Shown one piece after another: positions 2,564 through 4,853 of a stretch of 46,359 nucleotides of DNA (positions are counted from its first letter, which is position 1; every line of letters starts with the position of its first letter). The notes beneath the pieces were generated by a model, which made no database searches, was not told the DNA's origin, and worked only from the letters and a program-made list of their open reading frames with translations. Source of the stretch: Bacteroidales bacterium (GTDB taxonomy: Bacteria > Bacteroidota > Bacteroidia > Bacteroidales > JAIOZK01); NCBI GenBank assembly GCA_021740625.1, contig JAIOZK010000028.1:1-46359 (forward strand), in the 5' to 3' direction. Both the position numbers and the translations under genes were made by a program.

Positions 2564-3262
2564 ATGGAAGAATATACAAAAAAGACAAGTATCAAGCAGT
2601 GGGCCGAGGATGACAGACCCCGTGAAAAACTGCTTCATAAAGGAAAAGCCGCTTTGAGCAATGCCGAATTGCTGGCTATTCTCATCCGAACAGGAACGAC
2701 AAAGCAAACTGCACTTGATCTCGGCAAGGAGTTGCTGAACAAATGTCACAACAATTTGATAGAACTATCCAAACTCGGCATACCCGACCTGGTACAAATC
2801 GACGGGATTGGCGAAGCCAAGGCAATTACACTGCTGGCCGCCCTGGAAGTTGGTAACCGGAGGAGAGCTACAACAGCCCTGGAAAAAGCAAAAGTCTCCA
2901 GCAGCAGGGATGTTTTCGATATCTTTCATCCTGAACTGGCCGATTCCATTTATGAGCAATTCTGGTTATTGCTTCTCAACCGGGGCAATAAAGTGTTGAA
3001 AAAGATCAACATCAGCGAAGGTGGCATTTCCGGCACCATCGCCGACCCCAAAAAGATCTTCAAAAGAGCTCTCGACCACAGCGCTTCATCCATCATCCTC
3101 TGTCACAACCACCCATCCGGGACCCTGCAACCCAGCGAATCCGATATCAAACTAACCCGGAAACTTCGGGACGCCGGCAACATGCTCGACATCTCCGTCC
3201 TCGATCATGTCATCATCGCGGAAGAGAAGTACTTCTCGTTTGCGGATGAAGGGAAGATTTAG
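2564..3262 (+). CDS. radC: RadC family JAB/MPN-domain protein
   Basis: 232 residues, full length for RadC. The N-terminal helix-hairpin-helix-like part contains the phrase IDGIGEAKAITLLAALE. The C-terminal JAB1/MPN domain carries an intact JAMM zinc motif: H181, H183, S191 and D194 within CHNHPSGTLQPSESD. RadC was named for DNA repair, but its biochemical role remains uncertain, and the metalloprotease-like site suggests a hydrolase. The ATG at 2564 gives the family's usual start. It is separated from rpsT by a terminator and followed by a decayed S23 element, so it is likely a single-gene unit. The family call is very secure, the physiological role less so. Confidence 0.95.
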   Translation: MEEYTKKTSIKQWAEDDRPREKLLHKGKAALSNAELLAILIRTGTTKQTALDLGKELLNKCHNNLIELSKLGIPDLVQIDGIGEAKAITLLAALEVGNRRRATTALEKAKVSSSRDVFDIFHPELADSIYEQFWLLLLNRGNKVLKKINISEGGISGTIADPKKIFKRALDHSASSIILCHNHPSGTLQPSESDIKLTRKLRDAGNMLDISVLDHVIIAEEKYFSFADEGKI

Positions 3263-3289
3263 TTTTGAGTTTTGAATTTTGAGTTTTGA
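3262..3289. repeat. 7-bp tandem repeat (GTTTTGA), left arm of S23 element
   Basis: Four 7-bp units GTTTTGA/ATTTTGA start at the radC stop codon. They are complementary to the TCAAAAC units at 3677-3697, so the two arms form an inverted pair enclosing the S23 ORF. Confidence 0.85.
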
Positions 3290-3308
3290 GTTGACAAAAA
3301 ACAAATAA

Positions 3309-3665
3309 AGAATCAAAAAAATAAAAACAGGTATTATCCAGGAAAAGAGTTTTAGATTTGCACTACAGATTATTAGTTTATATAGAAATATGCAGGAGCA
3401 AAATGAATATGTGATATCAAAACAAATTATAAAGTCAGGAACCAGTATTGTTGCAAATGTGGAGGAGTCTACATCTGGGACAAGAAGAAAAGATTTTATT
3501 AACAAAATGGCAATAGCATCAAAAGAAGCCCGTGAAACAAAATACTGGATTAGATTATTAATCGCCAGTAAAATAATAGTTTATGATTTTTAATTACCAT
3601 TACAGGAGAATGATGAGATTATTAAAATACTAACCTCTATCATTAAAACCTCGCAGGGAAATTAA
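3309..3665 (+). pseudogene. decayed four-helix-bundle (S23/IVS-type) protein
   Basis: Reading the frame between the TAA at 3306 and the TAA at 3663 gives an almost complete S23 (23S rRNA intervening sequence-type) four-helix bundle protein. The N-terminal phrase IIQEKSFRFALQIISLYRN is followed by VISKQIIKSGTSIVANVEES, KDFINKMAIASKEARETKYW and, after a single in-frame stop (TAA 3591-3593), LPLQENDEIIKILTSIIKTS. Two lesions are visible: the in-frame stop before the last helix, and no ATG/GTG/TTG ahead of the conserved N-terminus (the first ATG, at 3390, comes after helix 1 has begun). S23 proteins are known from IVS elements in 23S rRNA and as the Avd accessory protein of diversity-generating retroelements. 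Here the ORF lies in no rRNA and is bounded by inverted heptamer arms. Confidence 0.85.
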
Positions 3666-3676
3666 ACCGGCATAAT

Positions 3677-3697
3677 TCAAAACTCAAAACTCAAAAT
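3677..3697. repeat. 7-bp tandem repeat (TCAAAAC), right arm of S23 element
   Basis: Three 7-bp units TCAAAAC/TCAAAAT end 4 nt before the wecB start codon. They are the reverse complement of the left-arm unit at 3262-3289, about 390 bp away. Confidence 0.85.
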
Positions 3698-3701
3698 TAG
3701 A

Positions 3702-4853
3702 ATGATAAAAATTGTCACAATCATAGGAGCCCGTCCTCAAATCATCAAAGCCGCCGCCTTAAGCCGGGCCATCCGGGAGAAATTTTCGGATCGTATTGTG
3801 GAGTTCATTGTGCATACCGGCCAGCACTACGACCGCAATATGTCGCAGGTGTTTATCGATGAGTTGGGCATTCCCGAGCCGGATATCAATCTGAACGTAG
3901 GTTCTGCTTCCCACGGGGTACAAACGGCAAAGATGATCGAAGGTATCGAAAAAGTATTGCAAGAATATAAGCCTGACTTTCTTATTCTCTATGGTGATAC
4001 CAATTCTACTCTGGCGGGAGCCGTGGCTGCCTCAAAGATACACATACCCGTGATACACGTGGAAGCCGGGCTCAGGTCTTTCAATAAAAAAATGCCTGAA
4101 GAGATCAACCGTATCGTATGCGATCATGCTTCCACCCTGCTTTTCAGTCCTACCAAAACAGGTTACAACAACCTGGTGCGCGAAGGCTTCAATCCTGCCA
4201 ACAAAACACCTTTCAGCATCGACCATCCGGGAATCTTTCATTGCGGTGACGTGATGTACGACAACTCCCTCTTTTTTTCGGAAATCGCTGAAGAAAAATC
4301 TGAGGTGTTAAAAAGGAACGATCTTTCAAAAGACAAATTTCTGCTCGGAACCATCCACCGCGACAACAATACGGATGACCCTGACAGGTTGAAAGCCATT
4401 TTCAAGGGAATCCTGAAAATCGCGAATGAAAGCCATATGGACATTGTACTGCCCCTCCACCCCAGGACCTCTAAAAAGATGGAACAAAATCTGACAGACA
4501 GCCTGAATGAACGCATTTCCAAAAAAGTCAACATCAAAATCATCGAACCTGTCTCATTCCTGGATATGATCGCACTGGAAAAAAATGCAAAAATGATCCT
4601 CACGGATTCGGGAGGCGTGCAGAAAGAAGCTTATTTTTTCCAGAAACCCTGTATCATCATGCGTGCACAAACCGAATGGGTGGAGATTGTTGAAAACAAA
4701 ACAGCCATTGTTAGCGATGCAGACGAAAAAAGTATATATGATGCCTGGAAATATTTCCGGACTTCCAAAGGAATACTTTTCCCGCCCATTTTCGGGGATG
4801 GCCATGCCGCTGAATTCATTTGCAAGACAATCCTGAATGCCAGAAAAAATTAA
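3702..4853 (+). CDS. wecB: UDP-N-acetylglucosamine 2-epimerase (non-hydrolysing)
   Basis: 383 residues, full length. It interconverts UDP-GlcNAc and UDP-ManNAc in the cytoplasm for surface polysaccharide synthesis. Family motifs visible in order: GARPQIIKAAAL at the N-terminus, HTGQHYDRNMSQVF, GDTNSTLAGA, HVEAGLRSFNKKMPEEINR (with the catalytic-region acidic residues), GTIHRDNN, and TDSGGVQKEAYF, which binds the UDP moiety. The start ATG lies 4 nt after the heptamer arm, so its promoter must lie in or upstream of the S23 element. The next gene begins within or just after its stop codon, suggesting co-transcription. No glycan cluster surrounds it here, so the polymer it serves cannot be told. 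Confidence 0.95.
   Translation: MIKIVTIIGARPQIIKAAALSRAIREKFSDRIVEFIVHTGQHYDRNMSQVFIDELGIPEPDINLNVGSASHGVQTAKMIEGIEKVLQEYKPDFLILYGDTNSTLAGAVAASKIHIPVIHVEAGLRSFNKKMPEEINRIVCDHASTLLFSPTKTGYNNLVREGFNPANKTPFSIDHPGIFHCGDVMYDNSLFFSEIAEEKSEVLKRNDLSKDKFLLGTIHRDNNTDDPDRLKAIFKGILKIANESHMDIVLPLHPRTSKKMEQNLTDSLNERISKKVNIKIIEPVSFLDMIALEKNAKMILTDSGGVQKEAYFFQKPCIIMRAQTEWVEIVENKTAIVSDADEKSIYDAWKYFRTSKGILFPPIFGDGHAAEFICKTILNARKN

Follow-up and report, generated by a model that had tools for sequence, protein, structure and literature searches.

A probable small transposable element made of one S23 gene and two inverted heptamer arrays, represented by a decayed copy between radC and wecB of a Bacteroidales genome

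Why does a broken gene of the S23 family occupy the gap between radC and wecB, framed by short repeats that are complementary to each other? The question is raised by contig JAIOZK010000028.1 of a Bacteroidales bacterium (assembly GCA_021740625.1), of which 46,359 nucleotides, called here the window, were analysed. We know of no role assigned to S23 ("four helix bundle protein") genes outside rRNA. A first-pass annotation of the locus had proposed an uncharacterised mobile element that resembles the intervening sequences (IVSs) of 23S rRNA. Sequence comparison with relatives suggests that the locus is probably a dead copy of what we call the S23 element, in which one S23 gene is enclosed by two inverted arrays of degenerate repeats, mostly of 7-8 bp, and that this element is likely to be a small transposable one. 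Mobility of the class as such appears highly probable to us, and the element is best read as a free-living relative of the 23S rRNA IVSs. It behaves as an insertion sequence would and has the layout of an rRNA IVS but is filed as neither, since a recognised transposase and a location in rRNA were each looked for and not found.

Insertion of such an element can be read in cyanobacterial plasmids. Near-identical sisters of Trichormus variabilis plasmid C exist that lack its S23; the search for them gave three records covered in full and six to 87%, and those read were two filled, three empty and one decayed. The empty site is AAAAAGTAATTAACAAATA, with no arms present, and the filled site is AAAAA-GTAAT-element-GTAAT-TAACAAATA, with a 5 bp target duplication (GTAAT) and with flanks 96-99% identical. 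Thus, at this one clean site, the arms and S23 entered together into an armless target, as one unit. This unit measures 423 bp in Trichormus; in Scytonema NIES-4073 it is 409 bp long, its left arm being 14 nt shorter. The possibility that arms were already present at the target is rejected for the GTAAT site by the same armless empty sequence. Aulosira laxa bears, at a different locus, a relative about 83-84% identical to the Trichormus element and composed of the same arm units. Arm-only derivatives exist as well: an insert without S23 (L306) has the arm units of the Trichormus S23 family, and a related junction (L305) is without the insert.

The genome from which the window comes (G000) holds 14 S23 copies (PF05635), mostly flanked on both sides by short tandem arrays of which the right one is the reverse complement of the left, while the unit varies from copy to copy (GATTACA, GTGAATA, GAGAGRT, GTTCAGAA, GATTGTTC, GGCAGTC and others). 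Such complementarity was scored by local alignment of the left flank with the reverse-complemented right flank, the threshold being the 99th percentile of mismatched left/right pairs. A score above 36 was reached by 11 of the 14 copies, nine of the 14 having the matched flank pair as their row maximum, and by 72 of 139 S23 loci overall, for which 36 is that percentile. The 139 loci were kept from 171 hidden Markov model (HMM) matches after removal of duplicates, fragments and short flanks; their rows are not independent, as L146-L180 were picked by similarity to one S23 and many of them lie at the trpE-trpG junction. The fair count is that for whole genomes of the order, where 51 of 88 flank-distinct copies exceeded the set's own 99th percentile (31); it is based on 95 copies in 88 clusters (linked ones merged) out of 139 PF05635 matches, the remainder being unfetched, fragmentary, duplicate or at contig ends. 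The test undercounts, because arms can overlap coding sequence, as the right arm of the Trichormus element overlaps the end of S23.

Generic intergenic repeats were considered as a source of the arms and are ruled out by ordinary open reading frames (ORFs) in 400 kb of the same genome, of which 1 in 288 passed the arm test, and none of the 80 that are 80-200 aa long. Period-7 arrays free of S23 do exist. The sole control ORF that passed, one of 425 aa (L045:10922-12362), is itself accompanied by period-7 inverted arrays and no S23.

The anatomy of the arms was taken from the 72 armed copies of the 139-locus set, related loci included. The best array period was 7 in 50 of them and 8 in 14, the median arm length was 39.5 nt, and the right arm began at a median of 23 nt past the S23 stop codon. 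G exceeded C in the left arm of 62 copies, a bias whose binomial p of 2.7e-10 is overstated because the rows include related loci. Elements measure about 0.4-0.7 kb and lie mostly in short gaps between co-oriented genes. With rising S23 identity, the arms matched on the same strand in 0.6, 0.6, 1.6, 7, 25 and 67% of pairs per bin, as against 0-4% on the opposite strand (1428 unlinked pairs, with only 24 and 3 in the two top bins). Arms therefore follow the S23 family in fixed orientation, and their formation anew at each insertion is for this reason unlikely. Concerted evolution of the two arms was also tried as an explanation and rejected: for an orthologue of G000 and G001 the values were 76 and 136 within genomes and 99 and 101 between them, and for nine trp orthologues the means were 28.0 for matched, 26.8 for mismatched and 15.6 for shuffled arms.

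The copy in the window (Table 1) agrees with this picture. Its frame matches PF05635 in a profile search with an E value of 4.6e-21, the translation has a single in-frame TAA (3591-3593), and no ORF of at least 80 aa starting with ATG, GTG or TTG spans it on the plus strand, no usable start being found; it was thus rightly described as a decayed S23 ORF, and its neighbours as radC and wecB. The repeats had been given as four GTTTTGA and three TCAAAAC, which holds if one-base variants are counted, for each array has one variant unit (GTTTTGA, GTTTTGA, ATTTTGA, GTTTTGA on the left; TCAAAAC, TCAAAAC, TCAAAAT on the right, ending 4 nt short of the wecB ATG). The arms are complementary as claimed, with a local alignment score of 38 and 22 of 24 positions matched. 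When the mononucleotides of the left arm were shuffled 5000 times, this score was reached once; the 99th percentile of mismatched pairs in the same genome is 37.95, so that the window copy is barely past the background, and the strength of the arm evidence rests on the set of copies rather than on this one.

Table 1. Positions in the window of the S23 element and of the genes on its two sides
Feature	Position	Strand	Remark
Left heptamer arm, (G/A)TTTTGA x4	3262..3289	+	shares its first base with the end of the radC stop codon
Decayed S23 / 23S_rRNA_IVP (PF05635) frame	3309..3665	+	HMM match 3336-3635
Right heptamer arm, TCAAAA(C/T) x3	3677..3697	-	reverse complement of left arm
Whole element (arm, S23, arm)	3262..3697	+	occupies the entire radC-wecB gap
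radC, flanking host gene	2564..3262	+	NCBIfam
wecB, flanking host gene	3702..4853	+	NCBIfam; ATG at 3702

Folding of the RNA from 3255 to 3705 gave the long hairpin that had been expected, with paired arms, at a predicted -86.6 kcal/mol (z -3.41; 1 of 100 shuffles was equally good). No Rfam family reached its gathering score in the window, which therefore contains no rRNA, and the layout of S23 between complementary arms is indeed found here outside an rRNA gene, in the radC-wecB gap. The radC-wecB junction has no counterpart in the only genome of the same genus, where the two genes are 66 kb apart and synteny is broken. The proposal of an uncharacterised mobile element is thus upheld for the class, through armed intact S23 ORFs of relatives and one filled/empty insertion, and not for the insertion of the window copy itself.

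Further evidence comes from turnover at shared junctions; the names trpE, trpG, groES, groEL, thiolase and epimerase were read from translations, with no family search, and plasmid gene names follow the records. In the comparison of G000 with G001, a palindrome without S23 at one junction of one genome stands against an interrupted S23 in the other, and at a second junction both the S23s and their arms differ. In the genus of C. taeanense, which is that of G348 and is taken here as Chryseobacterium (G588 matches L170 at 100%), S23 is present in 171 of 173 species at 1-18 copies each, and 22 further matches scored from 19 to 74, with no null. The trpE-trpG junction was resolved in 28 of the 30 loci most similar to L170, among 171 matching genomes: nine species have an S23-length insert (interrupted in at least one), two have remnants, five the right arm only, three other inserts and nine nothing, in a distribution that is patchy on the trpE tree. 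At a groES-groEL-like junction, three species carry S23 and two carry some other small insert, with flanks 97% identical and no clean duplication. A third Chryseobacterium junction carries, in one species, a 406-bp element with perfect 37-bp arms; among 14 species chosen because the match breaks there, four are empty, five have an unrelated S23 element and five have inserts without S23, and the first element recurs in eight others, which come from 30 loci and were read beside the query's own.

Some minor observations belong to these junctions. The right arm is readable in frame as an N-terminal extension of TrpG (anthranilate synthase component II) in C. taeanense (L170 3340-3430) and in L248-L277, including some species free of S23 (L254, L255, L258 and L261). 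More distant trpE-trpG junctions of the class contain a small lipoprotein-like ORF (L226, L238, L243) or a heptamer hairpin without S23 (L227). In G317, a genome with 17 S23 matches, one locus (L324) carries a pair of S23 elements that are separated by about 1.6 kb and unlike in their arms; one of the pair is probably young because its 37-bp arms are perfect. In G001 a small period-7 palindrome of the GTTGCAAG / CTTGCAAC type lies apparently inside an epimerase-like coding region (L086:260-360), where G000 has other palindromic inserts.

A separate problem is what the S23 protein contributes. Its ratio of nonsynonymous to synonymous substitution (dN/dS) is 0.076 for a G000/G001 pair, 0.10 for copies at different loci and 0.095 as a median over 14 trp pairs, which puts S23 under purifying selection in most cases, namely three of the four compared. 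Residues Q37, N48, E51 and E74 are invariant in 23 sequences. An AlphaFold2 model of the L170 protein (pLDDT 97) resembles 2gsc (TM 0.95), 2rld (0.83) and Avd (4dwl, 0.82), and S23 is accordingly modelled as a four-helix bundle with the Avd fold; proteins of the Avd / S23 superfamily are known to form pentamers. For four S23 proteins only PF05635 passed the Pfam cut-off, with no recognised transposase and with bAvd matching weakly. The density of heptamer arrays follows the S23 count over 41 genomes (rho 0.75), with medians of 0.79 arrays per Mb in 13 S23-free genomes and 14.55 in the 28 others. Since arm sequence goes with the S23 family, selection mostly conserves S23 and heptamer arrays track S23 number, we rather favour S23 as a participant over S23 as a passenger; we are less confident that it acts as the catalyst.

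One plausible mechanism would start with recognition of the paired arms by the S23 protein, which may help to move the element by a staggered cut and may likewise act in trans on hairpins made of arms only. After insertion the arms would lengthen or shrink by slippage, and old copies would decay, as the window copy may have done. In its most developed form, which we regard as tentative, the proposal is that S23 itself is the mobility protein: an all-helical protein of about 120 residues would move the gene that encodes it and, in trans, hairpins that consist of arms only, and would recognise the arms by their structure and 7-bp periodicity instead of by one fixed end sequence. On this view the rRNA IVSs would be those copies that inserted into hairpins of rRNA, Avd would be an S23 descendant that retroelements took over, and some of the heptamer repeats seen in Cyanobacteria and Bacteroidota would be debris of such elements.

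Several points weigh against mobility driven by S23. Movement itself was not observed, and the case is one of sequence comparison. A clean target duplication was found at one site only; none could be read at four other cyanobacterial plasmid sites, which are too diverged, nor was one seen at the three Chryseobacterium junctions compared, and in the L278/L303 comparison, again without clean duplication, the plasmid lacking S23 bears a short AATTACG array of its own. The arm test is failed by 37 of 88 S23 copies, even though intact relatives do not as a rule lack arms, a lack which the first-pass annotation had named as fatal to the idea. Armless orthologous S23 genes occur in both genomes of the genus (L017/L094, L018/L092), and the arms of orthologues do not show concerted evolution. 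Flank matches in direct orientation also passed the threshold, in 27 of 139 and 19 of 88 copies, because the arrays often repeat on one strand as well. Some S23 copies are common to many species at the trpE-trpG junction, and thus not all of the pattern is recent movement. The L282/L293 pair, with dN of 0.011 and dS of 0.012, gives no sign of constraint, the changes being too few to judge, and we know of no recombinase motif in S23. Finally, the array count adds up hits to the GTT-type pattern and to its TTG-type reversed "control", the two being about equally frequent in S23-rich genomes; it includes the S23 arms and counts overlapping windows repeatedly, and its correlation with S23 ignores phylogeny.

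The absence of a known catalytic motif from S23 would also fit an element in which S23 is a passenger, moved by an unrelated host transposase that acts on anything with such inverted ends, as in cargo-carrying miniature inverted-repeat transposable elements (MITEs). The arm-only copies agree with this, as do the ORFs of the GxxExxY family (PDDEXK_3, PF13366; L188-L216), which have complementary flanks above their own 99% null in 13 of 23 loci (out of 30 fetched, from 60 matches), so that such arms are not exclusive to S23. These flanks have longer, poorly periodic units (best period 8-12), e.g. CACAGAG, and the loci may form a second family of elements built in a similar way. However, the ends of S23 elements differ from copy to copy in one genome, unlike ends read by one transposase. 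Their sequence follows the S23 family, S23 is mostly kept by selection, and array density tracks S23 and not GxxExxY once S23 is accounted for (partial correlations 0.63 and 0.13). We therefore consider a passenger role of S23 unlikely. Some of the GxxExxY loci contain very long direct repeats (L194, L214).

Movement through RNA would involve a hairpin transcript that RNase III frees, as it does with rRNA IVSs, and that a reverse transcriptase (RT) supplied in trans copies into new sites, S23 acting on this enzyme in the manner of Avd. The hairpin is predicted, the fold is that of Avd (as in 4dwl and the ribonucleoprotein 8ub7 of a diversity-generating retroelement), and the Coxiella IVS was reported to be cleaved by RNase III in vitro (PMC4990558). 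S23 has the same direction as both neighbours in 106 of 129 loci (50 of the 68 with arms and 56 of the remaining 61) and is opposed to both in three, all of them armed; 129 of the 139 loci were usable for this count, non-independent rows included. Such co-orientation can also be explained by selection for S23 expression, and the arm mismatches of the 72 armed copies are not biased to G-U pairs on the sense strand (91 versus 117), which leaves selection for an RNA stem unsupported. No RVT_1 match was found in 13 of the 28 S23-bearing genomes, which are incomplete and may have lost RTs; these include the genome of the window, 95% complete and with 14 S23 copies. The number of S23 copies shows no correlation with that of RTs (rho 0.21, p 0.20). 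A reverse transcriptase thus seems unneeded in the genomes at hand, and we regard the RNA route as improbable. A reading without mobility, in which S23 is a normal member of an operon and the arms are regulatory or mRNA-stabilising hairpins grown by slippage, would suit the long-lived copies in the trp operon and the right arm readable as a TrpG start, but is already contradicted by the target duplication and armless empty sites, as well as by decay, by the patchy occurrence of S23 at each junction and by slots that hold different S23 elements, and is hardly credible.

A transposable S23 element can be set beside systems already described. In insertion sequences and MITEs, as here, there are inverted ends, a target duplication (one site, in relatives) and both gene-bearing and arm-only copies; the S23 element differs in having no recognised transposase and in ends that are arrays differing between copies of one genome. 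It is not a MITE, as an S23 ORF is present, though decayed in the window, while the arm-only relatives would fit that class. Avd of the diversity-generating retroelements shares the fold with S23 at 12-14% identity, and no RVT_1 reverse transcriptase, as such retroelements have, was found in the genome of the window.

Among further heptamer repeats are the short tandemly repeated repetitive sequences (STRRs) of Cyanobacteria, and these, the TAACTGA repeats and those of Nostoc trnL have 7-nt units and some of the same phyla in common with the S23 element. TAACTGA heptamers of Beggiatoaceae, Cyanobacteria and Bacteroidetes were described as spread horizontally with no evident mechanism, and "S23" and "four helix" are nowhere in the text (PMC4679880). 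The 7-nt repeats of Nostoc trnL P6b form a paired stem, and the available excerpt shows no S23 ORF beside them (PMC4476775). Closest are the 23S rRNA IVSs, e.g. that of Coxiella burnetii, with an S23 ORF between complementary arms in about 0.4 kb; according to the report on it (PMC4990558), tandem heptamers (GACAGAT) precede the S23 start there, their number varies between strains, and IVSs were proposed to be remnants of transposition or mobile elements. In contrast, S23 elements lie between genes and in many copies per genome, and they have heptamer arrays on both sides and, in a relative, a target duplication; RNA excision is known for the IVSs, and the S23 element has a predicted hairpin. 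Among the titles and abstracts listed by full-text searches of the open-access literature, which excluded subscription papers and preprints, none described it. If S23 is the single gene of a mobile element, the origin of rRNA IVSs, that of Avd, and the spread of heptamer repeats among Bacteroidota, Cyanobacteria and others all become testable.

S23 with complementary arms recurs in Cyanobacteriota, Gemmatimonadota, Planctomycetota and Acidobacteriota, the last two with loci scoring above 36. One query against phage records gave no S23 match. On complete plasmids of Cyanobacteria and Gemmatirosa, six of 11 S23 copies (taken from 29 records) exceeded the 99th percentile of mismatched pairs among them (39.6), and since arms are present on complete plasmids, an artefact of metagenome-bin assembly is an unlikely cause. 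Armed examples are TAGGGAG/CTCCCTA between nrdB and nrdA in Nostoc edaphicum and GGGAACA/TGTTCCC in Nostoc C052; the plasmid S23 of Calothrix brevissima has GGGTGTA arm units. The five copies below the threshold include the Trichormus element and the copies of Picosynechococcus (AGGAGATA, score 29, between cas10 and cmr3) and Calothrix PCC 7716 (no visible arms). S23 elements also lie within CRISPR-Cas operons of cyanobacterial plasmids, at cas6-cas4 and cas10-cmr3 (L278, L285).
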